DNA from: a virus | Virus record (IMG/VR): IMGVR_UViG_3300027754_000171 | Location: 1 to 44,765 of that record | Direction: 5' to 3' (one strand) | Length of the DNA stretch: 44,765 bases | Part shown: positions 2 through 7,418 of the stretch, one piece after another | How positions within the stretch are numbered: position 1 is the first letter of the stretch | Layout: each line of letters begins with the position of its first letter | Notes under the pieces: generated by a model | Seen by the model: only the letters and a program-made list of their open reading frames with translations | Told to the model about the DNA's origin: nothing | Databases searched by the model: none | Program-made: the position numbers and the translations under genes

Positions 2-91
2 CCAGGGTTCTTTGCCCCACCAGGGTTCTTTTCCCCACCAGGGTTCTTTGCCCCACCAGGGTTCTTTTCCCCACCAGGGTTCTTCGGACCT
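2..91 (+). repeat. 18-bp coding tandem repeat (PPGFFA/PPGFFS)
   Basis: Five consecutive 18-bp units start at 2, 20, 38, 56 and 74. The first four alternate between a GCC and a TCC codon, giving a 36-bp higher-order period; the fifth unit is diverged. Read in the frame of the downstream coding region they encode Pro-Pro-Gly-Phe-Phe-(Ala/Ser). The array runs off the left edge, so its full length is unknown. The near-identical units suggest recent expansion or homogenisation by recombination or slippage. Confidence 0.93.
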
Positions 92-694
92 CCTAGTTTT
101 GCAAAATCAGTCGGAGTTAATACTTTAGTGAGAACACCATCAGGATTAGTTTCAGCTGGACAACTTGAAATTGGAGACGAAATAATTGGTTTAAATATAC
201 CAGGAATTCCAGACAATTACTGGGATCTAGCAGGAGTTGGCATTTATGCATCGTATTCAGATTATGTTTTTACAGAAGAACAGATGGCCAACGCAATAGA
301 AACCGTGACAACAGTTGTTGGCAAAGTACTTCATGAAAATATTGGAGCAGTTGCTGTAAATGGAGACATTTACACATTAAATCACTTTATTCTTGCTAAA
401 AGAGATAATGAAATTAAATCAATAAACGTAAGATTTTTATTAAATACTGATTTGATTTATAATCATCAAACACAAGATTTTGTACCTGTTGAAGCATATG
501 AAAAAAATGAAGAAATTACAATTCAATCCTATTCTATAAACGTAGAACCTTTTGATTTTTATTTTACAGAAAACGGATTAACTTTTGATATGCAAGCACT
601 TGAAATAAGTCTTTCTGGAGAAAATGAATTAGCAATTCACTGCGCTGGACCTATTCATGACGGACATTGTTGTGACGAAATTACTCAACCTTAA
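2..694 (+). CDS. Repeat protein with Hint-like C-terminal domain (5' partial)
   Basis: The frame is open from base 2 to the TAA at 692-694 (230 residues visible), so the real start lies outside the window. The N-terminal part is the PPGFFA/PPGFFS repeat. The rest resembles a Hint (hedgehog/intein) fold. It has a block-A-like NTLVRTPSG followed by the LEIGDEIIG strand, a block-B-like TLNHF with the TxxH pattern, and a late strand EPFDFYFTENGL like the end of Hint domains. The residue expected to be the catalytic Cys or Ser is Val or Asn here, and the terminal His-Asn is absent, so splicing or autoprocessing looks unlikely. A Cys/His-rich tail (HCAGPIHDGHCC) may bind metal. I infer a virion surface or fibre protein. 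The repeat and frame are seen directly; the Hint call is pattern recognition. Confidence 0.6.
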   Translation, partial: PGFFAPPGFFSPPGFFAPPGFFSPPGFFGPPSFAKSVGVNTLVRTPSGLVSAGQLEIGDEIIGLNIPGIPDNYWDLAGVGIYASYSDYVFTEEQMANAIETVTTVVGKVLHENIGAVAVNGDIYTLNHFILAKRDNEIKSINVRFLLNTDLIYNHQTQDFVPVEAYEKNEEITIQSYSINVEPFDFYFTENGLTFDMQALEISLSGENELAIHCAGPIHDGHCCDEITQP

Positions 695-703
695 TTTCTA
701 TAA

Positions 704-1252
704 ATGAAATTTAGGGTAGGCCAAGCTGAAAGGGAGATAGAGAAATCTATCTCCTATCAGTCTTTTCCAGATGAATTGTATAAAGAAGGAATATGGGGAC
801 ATTTTGCTTTTGTTAATGATAGAGAGCACGGCGTAAGAGTAATTTGTTCTGCATACAATACTGATAGGTATTCTCCAGGCACAGTAGTTGTATCTAATAA
901 AGTTTTTAACGAATTTCCAATAGCACAAAGTGCCTGGAATATAAATAATCAAATAAGTAGAATGTATGTAGACCCATTTTATAGAAGCAAAAAAGTTGCA
1001 ACATATAGTGTTATTACAAATGACATGCTGGCAAAAAAACTTGGATATGAAATATGGTCTTCTATTTATAGCGAAAAGGGTGGCACAGTAGCAGGAGACC
1101 AGCTTTATAATAAAATATACAATTTGGGGTTTGAGGACAAAAAAATGGAAATAAACTTTAATGATATTTTTGAATTTAGGAATTTTTCATTTCCAGTAAA
1201 CTACATAGATAAGAGGATAGTTTATGTTGAACCAGACATACAGCCAGACTAA
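704..1252 (+). CDS. GNAT-like acetyltransferase family protein
   Basis: This 182-residue protein starts 9 nt after the previous stop and has no clear Shine-Dalgarno sequence. The centre carries a GNAT-motif-A-like stretch: a strand ISRMYVDP, then FYRSKKVA in the position of the acyl-CoA pyrophosphate loop, then a helix ending KKLGYEIW. The later LYNKIYNLGF resembles the Y-x-x-G-F ending of many GNATs. The canonical Q/R-x-x-G-x-G/A loop is imperfect, so activity is uncertain. It could modify a virion protein or a small molecule. Its place between the repeat protein and the oxygenase cassette suggests a virion-modification role, which is inference. Confidence 0.42.
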   Translation: MKFRVGQAEREIEKSISYQSFPDELYKEGIWGHFAFVNDREHGVRVICSAYNTDRYSPGTVVVSNKVFNEFPIAQSAWNINNQISRMYVDPFYRSKKVATYSVITNDMLAKKLGYEIWSSIYSEKGGTVAGDQLYNKIYNLGFEDKKMEINFNDIFEFRNFSFPVNYIDKRIVYVEPDIQPD

Positions 1253-1802
1253 GTTTTTTAAAAAAACAATAGATATAAATTTTGATATTAATAATTTAAA
1301 AGAAATGTCTTTTAAAAAAGATGATCTCTACTATACAAACAATGGAGACCTAGAGTTAAAAAATGAAATTATTATAAATAGCAAAAACATTTTTTCTGTT
1401 TATACAAATGGCTCATATGATTTATATACATCAATTTCAGAAGGATTAAAAGAAGCTTGTAATTTATATGATATAAATATAAATAAACAAAAATATATGA
1501 TTTATGGCAAAATTTCAAAATATGGGCCATCTACAAATAAATTATGGTATGATTTTCCAGGAATTAATATACCATACTTGCATGGAATATATTTTCCAGT
1601 TGAAGCGGAATATCAAGTATTCTTTATGAATAATAATAATAAAAAAGAAGAACTATTCCATAAAAATACATTATTTATTAATAAACCAACGGATATTATA
1701 AATATTAAAACAGACAAGGATCAAGATGTTATTGAGTTTTATATCGTCCCTCTTGATGCTTTAAAGCATAATGAGCCAGGCGTGTGGGTTCCAATTAATT
1801 AA
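1224..1802 (+). CDS. Hypothetical protein, oxygenase-cassette leader
   Basis: This 192-residue protein overlaps the preceding gene by 29 nt, suggesting translational coupling. It is very rich in Asn, Ile, Lys and Tyr and the DNA is extremely AT-rich. I do not recognise it with confidence. The C-terminal half (from about residue 105) reads as alternating beta strands: GIYFPVEAEYQVFFM, then LFINKPTDIINI, then DVIEFYIVPL. This resembles the beta-strand rhythm of a double-stranded beta helix. No HxD...H iron motif is visible, so it is not called an oxygenase. It may be a non-catalytic cupin-like partner of the enzymes that follow. Confidence 0.6.
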   Translation: MLNQTYSQTKFFKKTIDINFDINNLKEMSFKKDDLYYTNNGDLELKNEIIINSKNIFSVYTNGSYDLYTSISEGLKEACNLYDININKQKYMIYGKISKYGPSTNKLWYDFPGINIPYLHGIYFPVEAEYQVFFMNNNNKKEELFHKNTLFINKPTDIINIKTDKDQDVIEFYIVPLDALKHNEPGVWVPIN

Positions 1803-1808
1803 AATAAA

Positions 1809-1817
1809 TGATATACT
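1809..1817 (+). promoter_or_regulatory. Possible extended -10 promoter for the oxygenase operon
   Basis: TGATATACT fits an extended -10 element (TGN plus TATACT) in the 40-nt gap before the first oxygenase gene. A purine-rich AAAGAGA (1833-1839) could be its Shine-Dalgarno before the ATG at 1843. No good -35 is visible, so confidence is modest. Confidence 0.35.
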
Positions 1818-1842
1818 ACAATAGACAAAGAAAAGAGAAATT

Positions 1843-2541
1843 ATGTTAGAAAATGCAGAATACCTAGCAACTGGTATAGTTGTGTATAGAAATGTTTTCA
1901 ATACAGATAAAGCCTATATTCAAAGACTAGAAGATACGTTAGGGTCTAAAGAAAATACAAAGTACAGCTGGAAGCCAGGATATACAGGGTATGGTTCAAA
2001 AAATCTAAATTACAGAGACTGTGTAGATTTTAAGATTAAGCATAATACAGATGGATCCCTTTCGGCACACATGGACAATATTAGCAAAGAAGATCAAGAC
2101 GGTACGGATAAAGAATTGGTTAGAATTTGGGAAGACGCATATTATGCACAACTTCCAGCGGTAGATGATTATAGAGCAATGTTTAATCTTGCCCCACTTG
2201 AATATTGGGAATCTTTTAATTTTATTAAGTACGGGCCAGGCCAACATTTTCAAATTCATTCAGATCATGGATATTCCTATACATGTGTATTATCATTAGT
2301 GGGTTATTTAAATGATGACTACGAAGGCGGAGAACTTCATTTTGATAAGTTAGGCTTAACCATTAAACCAAAAGCAGGGGATCTTTATTTATTCCCATCA
2401 TCATATGTGTATTCACATGCAGCCATGCCAGTTACATCAGGAACAAAGTATTCAGTTGTAACAATGCTTGATTATTTAGAAACAGCGCATACCCCAGATT
2501 ATAGAAATCTAGAGGCAAAATATTCAAAGAGCTTGTTGTAA
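1843..2541 (+). CDS. 2OG-Fe(II) oxygenase, prolyl-4-hydroxylase-like (1)
   Basis: This 232-residue protein has the double-stranded beta-helix signature of the 2OG-Fe(II) oxygenase superfamily. The iron facial triad is H139-x-D141 (IHSDH) with distal H192 (YSHAAMPV). K202 (GTKYSV) sits where prolyl 4-hydroxylases use a basic residue to hold the 2-oxoglutarate C5 carboxylate. Between them is the hallmark YLNDDYEGGELHF strand-turn-strand. Known members couple 2-oxoglutarate decarboxylation and O2 to hydroxylation, often of protein prolines. The substrate here is unknown; the upstream X-Pro-Gly repeats are a candidate. It is the first member of an eight-gene overlapping run and ends in TAATG shared with the next start. 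Confidence 0.85.
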   Translation: MLENAEYLATGIVVYRNVFNTDKAYIQRLEDTLGSKENTKYSWKPGYTGYGSKNLNYRDCVDFKIKHNTDGSLSAHMDNISKEDQDGTDKELVRIWEDAYYAQLPAVDDYRAMFNLAPLEYWESFNFIKYGPGQHFQIHSDHGYSYTCVLSLVGYLNDDYEGGELHFDKLGLTIKPKAGDLYLFPSSYVYSHAAMPVTSGTKYSVVTMLDYLETAHTPDYRNLEAKYSKSLL

Positions 2542-3239
2542 TGTATTCAATAGATGCATTTAGAACTACAGGGCTATCAAATATTTCTCAATCTCCAGTA
2601 AAAAGAGATTGGATGGATGATACCTATGATAGACATGCATACAACTGCTTCCCAGTCACGATAACTAATTCATTAGGATGGAGTATATCTTTCCCAGAAG
2701 AAATTTCATTTGTTTGGGATGGAATTTCAGACTCATCTTCACACCATGTAAAGGTCTTGTCGGGAGAAAAGTATGTTTCTACTGGAAGAGCCAACGGAAC
2801 AATTAGTTTCAATACTGGGATAGGATTTAAAACAGATTCTAATTTAAGCCTATTATGTATGCCCACTCCAAATTTATTTATTAGGGGAGTGCAATCTTTT
2901 ACCACATTAATTAGCACATCTTTTTTTCACGGAGATTTCCCAATAGCCTGGAAAATTACTGAGCCCATGGTAAAAATTACAATACCAGCAAACACACCAA
3001 TTGCAAATATACTTCCTATATCATTGTCAGAATTACAGAATTCAGAAATAAAGTTTGCTCCGTTAAGCGAAAGGCCATCAACCGATTGCAGCGGGGAAGT
3101 CACAATGAAAAAAGTTAATGAAATAACAAAATCTGGCGGTTGGACAAATTTTTATAGAGATTCTATTGATGCATGCGGCAACTCTTTGGGTGATCACGAA
3201 GTTAAATCTATAAGGTTAAGCGTAGTAGAAAATGCCTAA
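2541..3239 (+). CDS. DUF6065-like protein (1)
   Basis: This 232-residue protein starts in the TAATG overlap with the upstream oxygenase. The order of motifs recalls the DUF6065 family of unknown function: KRDWMDDTYDRHAYNCFP near residue 20, TITNSLGWSISFPEEISFVWDG, then a mid-domain LLCMPTPNLFIRG and FPIAWKITEPMVKITIPANTPIANILPI. These are mostly beta strands. No catalytic motif is obvious. DUF6065-like genes are found beside 2OG oxygenases in some phage and bacterial clusters as far as I recall, but no function is established. It is paired with a probably related gene immediately downstream. Confidence 0.6.
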   Translation: MYSIDAFRTTGLSNISQSPVKRDWMDDTYDRHAYNCFPVTITNSLGWSISFPEEISFVWDGISDSSSHHVKVLSGEKYVSTGRANGTISFNTGIGFKTDSNLSLLCMPTPNLFIRGVQSFTTLISTSFFHGDFPIAWKITEPMVKITIPANTPIANILPISLSELQNSEIKFAPLSERPSTDCSGEVTMKKVNEITKSGGWTNFYRDSIDACGNSLGDHEVKSIRLSVVENA

Positions 3240-3936
3240 AATAACTTTTCATTCTAATAGATTTTACAATAATAAAAATTCAGACTTAAACCCCGAGCCA
3301 GCTAAAAAAAGTATGCCGCAGTGGTTTGTAGATTCTAGTAGGTATTGGTTTCCAGAAGATTCTAGCTCGTTATCATTTAAAGCTTGTCCAGCTCTGATAG
3401 ATGCTTTTTTAACTGGATATGTGTTAAAAACACCATGTGACATATATATTGCTAAAGGAGTAGATGCAGAAGGAAAAGAGCAAGTAGCTGCAATGACTCA
3501 ACACGGGTATGAAGATTTTTGTGGACATAGACCAGATATGGTTGGATTTCCAAAACCTATAGGAACAAATAAACATTTTCACTGGTACCCTAATTGGATG
3601 CCTGGGTTAGAAGACGGGTATAGCGCTATTTATGTTCATCCGCTAAATAGATATGACCTTCCATTTGTTACGGTTTCTGGTATAATTGATAACGATAAGA
3701 TGGACACTCCAGGGCTTATGCCATTTTTTTTAAAAGATGGTTTTGAAGGACTTATTCCTAAAGGTACTCCATACGCACAAGTGATTCCATTTAAAAGAGA
3801 AGACTGGACCTCAGAAGAAAAAATGTATACCCAAGAAGAAATTTTAGAAAGACACAACTTTCAAGCAAATAAATTTAGAGTGCCAGAGGGCGGGGCATAC
3901 AAGAAAAAGGTATGGTCAAGAAAGAGGTATGATTAA
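3232..3936 (+). CDS. DUF6065-like protein (2)
   Basis: This 234-residue protein overlaps the previous gene by 8 nt. Its N-terminus (PEPAKKSMPQWFVDSSRYWFP) is followed by KACPALIDAFLTGYVLKTPCDIYI. A later YSAIYVHPLNRYDLPFVTVSGIIDNDKMDTPG leads into LIPKGTPYAQVIPFKREDW. The last segment parallels PANTPIANILPI in the gene upstream, suggesting the two are divergent paralogues of one beta-rich fold. The sequence resembles phage proteins of unknown function often found near capsid or oxygenase genes. No enzyme motif is visible. It ends in TAATG with the next oxygenase. Confidence 0.55.
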   Translation: MPKITFHSNRFYNNKNSDLNPEPAKKSMPQWFVDSSRYWFPEDSSSLSFKACPALIDAFLTGYVLKTPCDIYIAKGVDAEGKEQVAAMTQHGYEDFCGHRPDMVGFPKPIGTNKHFHWYPNWMPGLEDGYSAIYVHPLNRYDLPFVTVSGIIDNDKMDTPGLMPFFLKDGFEGLIPKGTPYAQVIPFKREDWTSEEKMYTQEEILERHNFQANKFRVPEGGAYKKKVWSRKRYD

Positions 3937-4649
3937 TGATTACTGATAAGTGGGACACATCTAATAACGTTGCAAATTTTAATTCTCCCTCAATTACCCC
4001 TTCAGGATTTTTTGGAGATTCAGATAAAAATATAGTAGAAGTAGAAAATGCAATTACAGAAGAAGAACAGACTGTGTTGTTAGCATTTGCCAGAAATAAT
4101 AATTCATTTGACGATATCCCCACAGAGTTTAATGAAAATGGGACTCTTATCTATGACGAAAGACCGTGGGCAAATAGAGTAATTACTGGAGAAGAATTAG
4201 TAAAAAATGGCCACAACGAAATTATTGAAATTGTGACTAATATTATAAATAGATTTAAACTTGTAATAGAAAGCTTTTTTGAAGTTAAGGCAACTCCAAC
4301 GGGGCCAGCAATTGTTAGGTGGCCAGTAGGGGCAAGGCAAGAGCCACACGCAGACAAAGAGCTCCACGAGGGCCCAGACTCAGGAACACCCAATTCCTTT
4401 CCCTGGTATGACCTAGGGACAGTTTTTTATCTTAATGATGACTACACTGGGGGAGAGTTATATTTTCCAAAACAGGGCGTAGAGTTTAAGCCAAAACCAA
4501 GAGCGGGTTATTTTTTCCCAGGTGATATGAATTATATTCATGGGGTTAGGCCTATATCAGAAGGCTGCCGATACACATTACCATATTTCTGGACTATATA
4601 TGAATTACCAGAAAAATTTAGCGGACCAAAGGATTTTAAAAATGACTAG
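3936..4649 (+). CDS. 2OG-Fe(II) oxygenase, prolyl-4-hydroxylase-like (2)
   Basis: This 237-residue protein carries a full iron triad, H138-x-D140 (EPHAD) and H202 (YIHGVRPI), with R212 (CRYTLPYFW) as probable 2-oxoglutarate anchor. YLNDDYTGGELYF is the family hallmark. There is a longer insertion between HxD and the next strand (about residues 141-158) than in the first enzyme, in the region that shapes the substrate entrance. The N-terminal 60 residues have no match in the neighbours. The start is the TAATG overlap; the end overlaps the next gene by 8 nt. Confidence 0.85.
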   Translation: MITDKWDTSNNVANFNSPSITPSGFFGDSDKNIVEVENAITEEEQTVLLAFARNNNSFDDIPTEFNENGTLIYDERPWANRVITGEELVKNGHNEIIEIVTNIINRFKLVIESFFEVKATPTGPAIVRWPVGARQEPHADKELHEGPDSGTPNSFPWYDLGTVFYLNDDYTGGELYFPKQGVEFKPKPRAGYFFPGDMNYIHGVRPISEGCRYTLPYFWTIYELPEKFSGPKDFKND

Positions 4650-5364
4650 CTATGTGACAATGCATAAAGATCAATGCTTTACAGTAGATAATTTTTTATC
4701 TGAATTTGAATGTAAAGCAATAATTGCCTATTTAGATTTTTTGGTGGTCAATAAAATACTAGAGTGGAATCAGATATCATTCTATGATTCATTTGCAATG
4801 GGATTTTGGCCCTACGATCCAAATCTAGAAATGTTTGGATTGCCCTCTAATTACTTTAACGATATTTTGAAAAAAAGAATACAGGATATATCAGAAAATG
4901 TTTTATCAGTTAGTCTTGCGGAAGTAAGCTATCACGCACAAAAATGGGATGACGGAGCATATGCATCATTTCATTCTGATAATTCGGATGAACATGGTAA
5001 CCCAACAGAATTTGTAAGAAGTAAATTTGCGGTATTTATATATTTAAACGATAATTTTGAAGGAGGGTATCTAAACTTTAAAAATCATGATGTAAATATA
5101 AAACCAGCCGTAGGCAGAGCAGCTATATTTGCTGGGGGACACAACAATGAACACGAAGTAACAAAAGTTCATGGCGGAACAAGATACACTATAGGTTCGT
5201 TTTGGGATTTAGCAGATTGCGTATACTCTGAAGAAGAATTACAGGAAAGAGAAGAAAGACTTAAAAAGACCAGGGCGGGCCAAGACATAACCTACAAGCA
5301 ATGGGAAGATGAAAAAAAGCTTGGCATCACGCAAGACTATATTGGAAAGTACGGAGAAAAATGA
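4642..5364 (+). CDS. 2OG-Fe(II) oxygenase, prolyl-4-hydroxylase-like (3)
   Basis: I place the start at ATG 4642, within the end of the upstream gene. It has AAAGGA about 10 nt upstream and matches the short overlaps of the cassette. A longer open frame reaches 4540 but would overlap the upstream gene by 110 nt. The 240-residue product has H111-x-D113 (FHSDN), distal H171 (NNEHEV) and R181 (TRYTIGSFW), plus YLNDNFEGGYLNF. A charged C-terminal extension (about residues 195-240, rich in Glu and Lys) follows the catalytic core and is probably helical. It ends in an ATGA overlap with the next gene. Confidence 0.85.
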   Translation: MTSYVTMHKDQCFTVDNFLSEFECKAIIAYLDFLVVNKILEWNQISFYDSFAMGFWPYDPNLEMFGLPSNYFNDILKKRIQDISENVLSVSLAEVSYHAQKWDDGAYASFHSDNSDEHGNPTEFVRSKFAVFIYLNDNFEGGYLNFKNHDVNIKPAVGRAAIFAGGHNNEHEVTKVHGGTRYTIGSFWDLADCVYSEEELQEREERLKKTRAGQDITYKQWEDEKKLGITQDYIGKYGEK

Positions 5365-6215
5365 AAAAGATAGAAATTTATCCAAAAGTTATTGTTTATA
5401 AAAATATGCTTCCAAGATGGAAGGAATATGTTGAGCTTTTAAAAGAATCTGAAAAAAGAAGCCCTGAACATTTATTTAAAGAGTGGCAGGATTGGTATGG
5501 ATTTGGCGGCATGATGAATCTTTCAATGAATAGACCAGAAACTGAATATGCCATAGATAGCAATGATAGATATGCTTTATTGCAAAAAGACTTTTTGACA
5601 GATGTAACAAATGCATATTATCAATGCACAGAAGACTATGTTATGACAAATGAAATATCTTTACCAAATTGGGTAAATAACGGAATTTCAATTTGCAAGT
5701 ATTGGGAAACTCAAAAAGACAATACAATGGCAATGCACTATCATACAGATTACAGAGGGTTTGACTATGAGTCACCAGGTAAAAAATATGCCATAACCTG
5801 TACAATTTACATTAATGACGATTATGATGGAGGCGGACTATCATTTTTAAGAGAAGACACTGGAGATGTTATTGATTATAAGCCAGAGGCTGGCGACATT
5901 GTTGTATTCCCATCAGGAGATCCAGTAACGGGGGGCTCTCATTATTTTCATGGAGTTGATAGAGTTGATAATGGAGAAAAATATTTTATAAGATGCTTTT
6001 GGTCATATGATTTCCCAGGCACAGAAGAATGGCATGCCAATAAAACAAAACACGGGGAAGACTGGGACAAGATTGATTCGGAAAGAATGAAGAAGGAGAT
6101 ACATTCTGGCAAGTGGCACAAATACCTGGTTAAACCTGGGCAAGAAGATCCAAAGCTAGAAAAATCAAGTCCATTTTTTATGAAAGATGAAGATGCATAT
6201 AAAAAAATTAGATGA
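5361..6215 (+). CDS. 2OG-Fe(II) oxygenase, prolyl-4-hydroxylase-like (4)
   Basis: The start overlaps the previous stop as ATGA. This is the longest member (284 residues). The triad is H128-x-D130 (YHTDY) and H197 (YFHGVDRV), with K207 (EKYFIRCFW) as likely 2-oxoglutarate ligand and YINDDYDGGGLSF as family hallmark. A C-terminal extension of about 70 residues, rich in Lys and Glu, follows the core. Every arginine codon examined in this gene is AGA, in contrast to the capsid gene. Substrate unknown. Confidence 0.86.
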   Translation: MKKIEIYPKVIVYKNMLPRWKEYVELLKESEKRSPEHLFKEWQDWYGFGGMMNLSMNRPETEYAIDSNDRYALLQKDFLTDVTNAYYQCTEDYVMTNEISLPNWVNNGISICKYWETQKDNTMAMHYHTDYRGFDYESPGKKYAITCTIYINDDYDGGGLSFLREDTGDVIDYKPEAGDIVVFPSGDPVTGGSHYFHGVDRVDNGEKYFIRCFWSYDFPGTEEWHANKTKHGEDWDKIDSERMKKEIHSGKWHKYLVKPGQEDPKLEKSSPFFMKDEDAYKKIR

Positions 6216-6807
6216 TAATATAATATATTACACGGGGGTAATCCCAGACCCAAATGGTTTTGTAAATCAAATTGAAAGCCTAGATCTGTCTAATGATAAT
6301 ACTACACAAATTTCAAAATGGAAAACATGGACAGCCAGCGACCACGATGTAGAATATGGTTTATCAAAAGATGGAATGTTTTCTAATATGCAATACTACA
6401 CGGATGAAGATTTAGACACATCTATGATGGTGTATCAAATTAAATTAATATCTGATTTATGTTTTGCAAGCTATTCACATATTACTGGTGCACCTCGTTT
6501 AAAGCTACCAGATTATTTTAGCATCAGGAAATATAACTCTCTTGCAGATATGGGACAGCATGTAGACGCAGAAGACCCAACCGACAAAGCCCACCCAGTT
6601 GTTTCAGGAGTCTTGTATTTAAATGATAATTACGAGGGTGGAGAAATATATTTTCCAGAACAAGATATTAAAATAAAACCAGAAGCTGGTAGCTTAGTTA
6701 TGTTTCCTTCGTATAGGCCATACTTCCATCATCCATTGCCAGTAACTTCTGGCAGCAAGTACATGGTTCCATTTTTTTGGTTTGATATAGAAACTAATTG
6801 GGGGTAA
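6187..6807 (+). CDS. 2OG-Fe(II) oxygenase, prolyl-4-hydroxylase-like (5)
   Basis: The coding region overlaps the previous one by about 29 nt if ATG 6187 is used. ATG 6193 is an equally plausible start two codons later. The product (206 residues) has H125-x-D127 (QHVDA), a distal His at 181 or 182 (YFHHPLPV), and K191 (SKYMVPFFW). YLNDNYEGGEIYF precedes the distal His. The tail PLPVTSGSKY resembles the corresponding MPVTSGTKY of the first enzyme, suggesting these two are the closest relatives in the array. Confidence 0.84.
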   Translation: MKMHIKKLDDNIIYYTGVIPDPNGFVNQIESLDLSNDNTTQISKWKTWTASDHDVEYGLSKDGMFSNMQYYTDEDLDTSMMVYQIKLISDLCFASYSHITGAPRLKLPDYFSIRKYNSLADMGQHVDAEDPTDKAHPVVSGVLYLNDNYEGGEIYFPEQDIKIKPEAGSLVMFPSYRPYFHHPLPVTSGSKYMVPFFWFDIETNWG

Positions 6808-6812
6808 TTTAA

Positions 6813-7418
6813 ATGATGCATTTGCCATCAATTTTAGACAACGATTCAATATACTTTAGGAATAATATTTCTGAGGTTGATAATTTAATTAAATTTATAG
6901 AAGAATGTGATCAAGACTCATCAACTTACGGGTACATAACTCAATGGCAAAAATTAAATGATTATACTATGTATAAAACATTTACTAGAAATACAGAAGC
7001 AATGTCTAACAGAATGCTTCAAAAATGCTTATACATATATAATAGCTTTAACTCGGGATTATCTTTTTGCAAAGAGCATTATTCAAACTACTCTATGAGA
7101 AATACAGGACCGCTTGAAGAATTAACAATTTTTAAATCTTTAACAAGAACACAGCATCCTAGAGAACAAGAATTTAATGTCTTGAATGACGAGGATACCA
7201 TTTCTGCTTATCTTGTACTTAATACCGAGATCTCCAGTAGCCCATTCTGCATAGACAGATCCAGAAATGTTTATATTAATCCAGAGCCATGCAGCGCAAT
7301 AATGATTAAAAATACAGTACAGCATGCAGAAGGAATGAATATAACGCAGCCACTTTACTATGTAAAGTGCAAATTCCCCCTTCTGGAAACAAAGACCAGC
7401 GTAACAGATCTGCTATAA
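6813..7418 (+). CDS. Degenerate 2OG oxygenase-like protein
   Basis: This 201-residue protein follows the fifth oxygenase by 5 nt and appears to share its fold: a long helical N-terminus, a strand region near residues 100-140, and a closing HAEGMNITQPLYYVKCKFP. A distal-type His (H171) and a Lys (K185) are retained. However, the HxD position reads H115-P-R117, so the iron-binding Asp is replaced by Arg, and the LND-EGG hallmark is reduced to LVLNTE. I infer a catalytically dead paralogue, perhaps a substrate-binding subunit. It could also be an unrelated beta protein. Confidence 0.5.
   Translation: MMHLPSILDNDSIYFRNNISEVDNLIKFIEECDQDSSTYGYITQWQKLNDYTMYKTFTRNTEAMSNRMLQKCLYIYNSFNSGLSFCKEHYSNYSMRNTGPLEELTIFKSLTRTQHPREQEFNVLNDEDTISAYLVLNTEISSSPFCIDRSRNVYINPEPCSAIMIKNTVQHAEGMNITQPLYYVKCKFPLLETKTSVTDLL

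Follow-up and report, generated by a model that had tools for sequence, protein, structure and literature searches.

We analysed a window of 44,765 nucleotides, positions 1 to 44,765 of the IMG/VR virus fragment IMGVR_UViG_3300027754_000171, which carries at its left end the gene of a protein with a Pro-Pro-rich repeat array, followed by a cassette of oxygenase genes (Table 1). The left edge of the window falls inside the array, where the open reading frame (ORF) remains open. After the array gene lie, in this order, a weakly GNAT-like gene, an ORF without assigned family, the oxygenase E1, a DUF6065 protein, a phrog_7084 protein, the oxygenases E2 to E5 and a degenerate sixth oxygenase; past the cassette, a LamG protein is followed by the portal and head genes. 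Gene content and order are the same in the relatives L005 to L009, and therefore the cassette in the window is not a chance arrangement. The set of array protein, several prolyl-hydroxylase-like enzymes and DUF6065 is found in several hundred freshwater phage sequences. The portal of the window is 59.5% identical to that of Karimac-type Streptomyces phages, so the host is likely one of the Actinobacteria, probably a freshwater one; the Karimac annotation contains no comparable cassette.

Table 1. Features of the window and of related loci, with supporting matches.
Feature	Position	Strand	Remarks
Array protein, N-terminally incomplete	2..694	+	array 2-100; Hint-like domain from Ser at 107-109 to stop
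Possible GNAT-like protein	704..1252	+	accessory; best match 0.0076 (in homologue), below cut-off
Protein of unassigned family	1224..1802	+	accessory; weak DUF432 match, 0.023
Oxygenase E1 ('m1')	1843..2541	+	core; immediately 5' of DUF6065; H139-x-D141...H192...K202; PF13640 E 7e-16
DUF6065 protein (PF19541)	2541..3239	+	core; 3.8e-31; 108.8 bits against a curated cut-off of 26.6
phrog_7084 protein, remote DUF6065 relative	3232..3936	+	phrog_7084 5e-29; hhalign to DUF6065 76%, 2e-5
Oxygenase E2 ('p1')	3936..4649	+	core; H138-x-D140...H202...R212; PF13640 E 1.4e-5
Oxygenase E3 ('p2')	4540..5364	+	H145-x-D147...H205...R215; PF13640 E 5e-11; start uncertain
Oxygenase E4 ('p3')	5361..6215	+	H128-x-D130...H197...K207; PF13640 E 1.6e-10
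Oxygenase E5 ('p4')	6187..6807	+	H125-x-D127...H181...K; PF13640 E 3e-11
Sixth oxygenase relative, degenerate	6813..7418	+	without H-x-D; E 2e-6 to cassette profile
Full-length array protein of relative	L005:9119-10552		477 amino acids; FN3-like N-terminal part, 16 PPxFF units, Hint-like domain
Sulfotransferase and Asp/Asn-type hydroxylase, example	L251:4486-5758		oriented locus (G001:C1:51409-69393 reversed); six loci in all
Collagen-like S74-ending fibre (c11), example	L251:10789-11946		oriented locus
AurF-like diiron oxygenase and apparent methyltransferase	L267:9205-10963		myovirus type

In the window, the repeat residues read PGFF-A-PPGFF-S-PPGFF-A-PPGFF-S-PPGFF-G-PPSF, and A-K-S and the Hint-like domain come next. 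The array protein is complete in L005, whose Hint-like domain is 90% identical to that of the window protein; the N-terminal part of the L005 protein matches an FN3-like domain (2.3e-6), and its array unit is (A/S/G)-Pro-Pro-x-Phe-Phe. Counted over 599 units, x is Gly in 52% (313/599), Ser in 16% and Ala in 10%, the remainder being Leu, Arg, Asn, Thr, Val and others. In total 13 residue types, Gly included, occupy x, and four of 53 loci have no Gly there. The array period is 6 or 4. In loci with a myovirus-type backbone (see below), the arrays are either PPxFF, as in the window type, or period-4 PPYF/PPFF without Gly, and these Gly-less arrays are accompanied by the same core genes. Phe/Tyr is almost as invariant as Pro-Pro. 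The constant element of the arrays is Pro-Pro plus Phe/Tyr, and the array is closer to extensin-type polyproline than to collagen. The sequence-only reading of this DNA had argued from X-Pro-Gly, the collagen-type substrate, that the enzymes act on the repeats; this rationale does not survive the survey of array units.

Three features make the array protein look like a tail protein: the position of its gene after tail-fibre genes, the FN3-like domain and, in some arrays, an attached tail-spike chaperone of the S74 type. Many array proteins of the myovirus type are short and have no evident FN3 domains. Four contigs (L252, L273, L034 and L083) encode two array proteins each, one of them fibre-sized (about 500-1057 amino acids). 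Cellular counterparts were considered and rejected: there were 13 genome-contig matches, and those examined proved to be either unrelated repeats or proteins without homology to the array protein, and none had a gene of the cassette in its vicinity.

All five oxygenases match PF13640, E2 with a score (26.4 bits) marginally below the Pfam cut-off of 27. The H-x-D...H triad is invariant within the alignment of each of the five enzyme families (A3-A7), and the 2-oxoglutarate (2OG)-anchoring residue, approximately 10 positions past the last His, is Lys in E1, E4 and E5 and Arg in E2 and E3. The PF13640 matches, the invariant iron-ligand triads, the Lys/Arg anchor and the double-stranded beta-helix of the E1 model place the enzymes in the 2OG-FeII_Oxy_3 family. 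The sequence-only description of a PPGFF repeat protein upstream of five oxygenases with triad and anchor is thus borne out. Compared with solved structures, the family profile of E1 best matches the prolyl 4-hydroxylase (P4H) of B. anthracis and LH3 (1.6e-7), that of E2 P4H and prolyl 3-hydroxylase 1 (P3H1; 1e-5), that of E3 P3H1 (1.5e-9), and that of E5 P4H and PBCV-1 vCPH (4e-9). The AlphaFold model of E1 (predicted local distance difference test, pLDDT, 90) has as top structural matches Chlamydomonas P4H-1, PBCV-1 vCPH, the (Ser-Pro)5-bound algal P4H, P. putida P4H and PHD2. Their similarity to P4H, P3H1 and LH3 makes E1, E2, E3 and E5 candidate peptidyl-proline hydroxylases; the sixth relative is probably non-catalytic. 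PHROG families matching these oxygenases (window positions 1843-6807) bear the labels 'ferrochelatase', 'DNA endonuclease V' and 'DNA endonuclease', apparently misannotations.

The presence of several enzymes per locus from distinct families (P4H-like and P3H1-like), the near-constancy of Phe/Tyr and an Asp/Asn-type hydroxylase behind the array gene in six loci could also be read as signs that the array is modified on Phe/Tyr or on the variable x instead of on proline, or that the enzymes split the positions between 3-/4-hydroxyproline formation and side-chain hydroxylation. We consider this very unlikely, as the close solved relatives found include no known peptidyl-Phe or peptidyl-Tyr hydroxylase and most of them are prolyl hydroxylases.

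Two DUF6065-like proteins had been proposed from the sequence. The first is a clear member of the family; the second, present in about half of the loci, is a remote homologue only and belongs to phrog_7084. A search of PDB sequences with DUF6065 gave no match, tblastn of INPHARED with two queries did not find it in cultured phages, and we found no paper on it in the literature. The predicted model (pLDDT 79) is weakly dUTPase-like (Foldseek against dUTPase: E 1.5e-3, template modelling (TM) score about 0.3-0.6, no match below 1e-3). Together with a Tet_JBP match of E1 (0.0045) and the DNA-repair role suggested for cyanophage 2OG oxygenases (PMC3037559), this fold would suit a role in auxiliary metabolism or nucleic-acid chemistry, with the oxygenases acting on nucleotides, DNA or small molecules and DUF6065 being a dUTPase-like nucleotide protein. 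We give this explanation little credence: the closest relatives of the enzymes are protein hydroxylases, the genes lie inside the virion-structure block, and the link to arrays is specific and absent for the cyanophage-type enzyme.

The sequence-only reading had proposed a survey of phage genomes for co-occurrence of repeat protein and oxygenases, and its outcome is strongly positive. A scan of viral contigs for PPxFFxPPxFF gave at least 120 stretches, nearly all of them long arrays. Among 50 array contigs of about 20 kb or more, with the closest relatives of the window left out, PF13640 oxygenases were present in 50/50 (1-14 per contig), compared with 2/34 random viral contigs (Fisher 4e-21, a descriptive value because the contigs are related by descent). 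In contigs longer than 60 kb, 35/50 oxygenases are located no more than 10 kb from the array, where 19% would be expected, counting the best-scoring oxygenases among the matches listed. In the reverse direction, window-type contigs found via DUF6065 alone, with at least 5 kb upstream of it, have an upstream array in 39/39 cases (33 by the strict pattern and six by a looser one), and myovirus-type DUF6065 contigs have one in 61/63 (56 in the fetched flanks and five elsewhere on the contig). No arrays were found in 34 random viral contigs or in 120 control loci, and no DUF6065 in the 34 random contigs. A general tie between arrays and any phage 2OG oxygenase was rejected: 80 loci collected via an unrelated cyanophage-type oxygenase contained neither arrays (0/80) nor DUF6065.

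The loci fall on two backbones. Window-type loci have a Karimac-like portal in common, and the others have a tail sheath (myovirus type) along with a different set of structural genes, for which cultured phages offer only distant matches. Both backbones carry the core of array, E1 and DUF6065, plus E2, which is inverted in the myovirus type; most window-type loci also have relatives of E3-E5. A tree built from 285 oxygenases contains an E1 clade and an E2 clade, both of which unite siphovirus- and myovirus-type loci (support 0.93 and 0.99, respectively). The two-way co-occurrence, the random and 2OG-matched controls and the recurrence in two unrelated tail types strongly support, at the level of sequence, a functional tie between the array and the oxygenases, and to this extent the proposal that the enzymes act on the repeats is supported. 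A stronger argument than the p-values is that the link recurs in two backbones whose array proteins are built differently.

Adhesion modules are exchanged between phages as blocks, and the array gene and the cassette are adjacent and share one backbone in most contigs. It is conceivable on these grounds, albeit rather improbable, that they form one exchangeable adhesion module by co-inheritance only, with no biochemical connection. Against this, the same four parts occur in two backbones despite differently built array proteins (PPxFF versus PPYF, with or without FN3, Hint and S74 domains), and the orientation of E2 has changed between the backbones.

Of 152 non-redundant array proteins, 70 have no more than 60 residues beyond the array, 71 run straight into a Hint-like domain (assigned by a simple pattern and inspection by eye) and five into S74, the chaperone matching at 2.4e-12. 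The array thus stands at the C-terminus or immediately ahead of a Hint or S74 domain, and because arrays lacking a Hint domain are still accompanied by the cassette, the array is the common part. S74-type proteins have the junction PPAFK-SDVRDK, and the short types stop natively at PPAFK or PPSFK. The Hint-domain profile (A10) matches the bacterial intein-like 2lwy (6.4e-7) and the gp41-1 intein (2e-5), and all Pfam matches of the Hint-like domains are under the curated cut-offs. Position 1 is Cys in most relatives; the window has Ser plus T-L-N-H, and the His is absent in several relatives. The Hint-like domain behind the repeats was overlooked in the sequence-only reading. Hint domains and Peptidase_S74 chaperones are families that cleave themselves off; where present, either would therefore probably remove itself, so that the mature protein would end in the array in each class.

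We consider it probable that this locus serves specifically to hydroxylate the Pro-Pro-aromatic array of the phage's own tail fibre. From sequence, we infer the array as substrate, proline as the residue, the self-cleavage, the role of DUF6065 and the benefit. In this reading, which makes the locus a modification system of the phage's adhesion apparatus, the tail-type protein bears the long Pro-Pro-(x)-Phe/Tyr array at its C-terminal end, and the neighbouring Fe(II)/2OG prolyl-hydroxylase-type enzymes would hydroxylate it, most likely on prolines, in the infected cell and ahead of assembly; DUF6065 would probably serve as their partner or as a recognition factor. Hydroxylation may stiffen the polyproline stretch and supply polar or attachable groups, and excision of the Hint or S74 domain would give the mature end that short versions have natively. 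Not every enzyme of the cassette may need to act on the array. A more elaborate version, which we advance only tentatively, is a widespread phage system in which several position-specific hydroxylases and a DUF6065 recognition protein convert the Pro-Pro-aromatic tail array into a hydroxylated adhesion polymer at the C-terminus, perhaps with additional decoration, that is bared by self-removal of Hint or S74.

Other adhesion proteins could instead be the substrate, namely FN3-like domains, the LamG protein, long fibres or a collagen-like S74 fibre, with the array as scaffold or co-inherited. The LamG protein comes next in most loci, and the collagen-like fibre stands at the cassette end in 17/56. 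We regard this as unlikely: the collagen-like fibre is missing from the window lineage and 39/56 loci, the stretches read of myovirus loci have neither it nor LamG and yet keep array, E1, E2 and DUF6065, and the lack of evident FN3 domains in many short myovirus-type array proteins also speaks against it. As main substrate, the collagen-like fibre is disfavoured by its limited distribution.

Several observations weigh against the hydroxylation of the array. The similarity to solved hydroxylases is modest (profiles 1e-5 to 1e-9; TM about 0.55), and for E4 the nearest solved relative, itself weakly matched, is Streptomyces PolD (9blq), which belongs to a small-molecule pathway. The weak dUTPase-like fold of DUF6065 is not indicative of protein modification. 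Cleavage is uncertain, the Hint domains being divergent and position 1 in the window being Ser instead of Cys. Two myovirus-type DUF6065 contigs, fragments of 5.1 and 18.4 kb, have no array, and the contigs are akin (38/56 loci have one portal family), so that the Fisher values overstate their independence.

Some loci add further genes. In six, the space between the array gene and E1 is taken up by genes for a sulfotransferase (PF03567, 1.8e-7) and for an Asp/Asn-type hydroxylase (PF05118, 1.3e-11), which could possibly contribute further tailoring. Myovirus-type loci have, near the cassette, an apparent S-adenosylmethionine methyltransferase as well as a diiron oxygenase of the AurF-like kind (PF11583, 3.7e-7). 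Within the array-centred locus set, the GNAT-like and DUF432-like genes occur only in the subclade of the window (about nine loci), and the GNAT assignment made from the sequence is weak. Haloarchaeal tailed viruses, HF1 and HRTV-8 among them, have relatives of phrog_7084 (26-32% identity; L372:7857-8693); in HRTV-8 the gene is close to baseplate genes, and the one neighbourhood examined has no annotated oxygenase adjoining.

Aquatic phages commonly encode 2OG oxygenases, most of which lack a known substrate; here the genome points to a candidate substrate, the repeat array, which accompanies one specific oxygenase set plus DUF6065 but does not accompany the second 2OG family tested. If the favoured reading is correct, tailed phages hydroxylate a virion protein of their own, an activity so far found in giant viruses and eukaryotes, DUF6065 obtains its first functional setting, and the substrate assignment is directly testable with short peptides.

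The closest likeness is to Chlamydomonas P4H-1 (2jig, 3gze), an enzyme of the extensin/polyproline type that acts on Gly-less proline-rich repeats and has been solved with (Ser-Pro)5 bound (3gze). E1 is about 14% identical to it, and the phage, where activity is putative, has several paralogues and DUF6065 in one operon-like cluster. Bacterial EF-Tu P4Hs (P. putida 4iw3; B. anthracis 3itq/5v7y) are, in sequence, the nearest to E1 of all solved proteins and rank among the nearest in structure too but, unlike the phage cassette, are lone host enzymes with a cellular substrate. Marine cyanophage 2OG-Fe(II) oxygenases (phrog_61 and others) belong to the same superfamily, often several per genome, and differ from the window cassette in the lack of arrays and DUF6065 noted above for one such enzyme. 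The directly array-following bacterial intein-like/Hint (2lwy) and Peptidase_S74 relatives likewise belong to self-cleaving families, although the divergent window domain with its Ser1 makes cleavage here putative. PBCV-1 vCPH (5c5t) is likewise a virus-encoded protein-modifying 2OG hydroxylase, and the mimivirus collagen lysyl hydroxylase/glucosyltransferase L230 acts on viral collagen; both come from eukaryotic giant viruses and concern collagen Gly-X-Y, whereas the present loci belong to tailed phages and combine a non-collagen Pro-Pro-aromatic array with DUF6065. We found no paper on a phage array-hydroxylase system in the literature. Virus-encoded protein hydroxylases are already known from giant and chlorella viruses, and in this light the putative Pro-Pro-aromatic array/DUF6065 system of tailed phages is not wholly without precedent.

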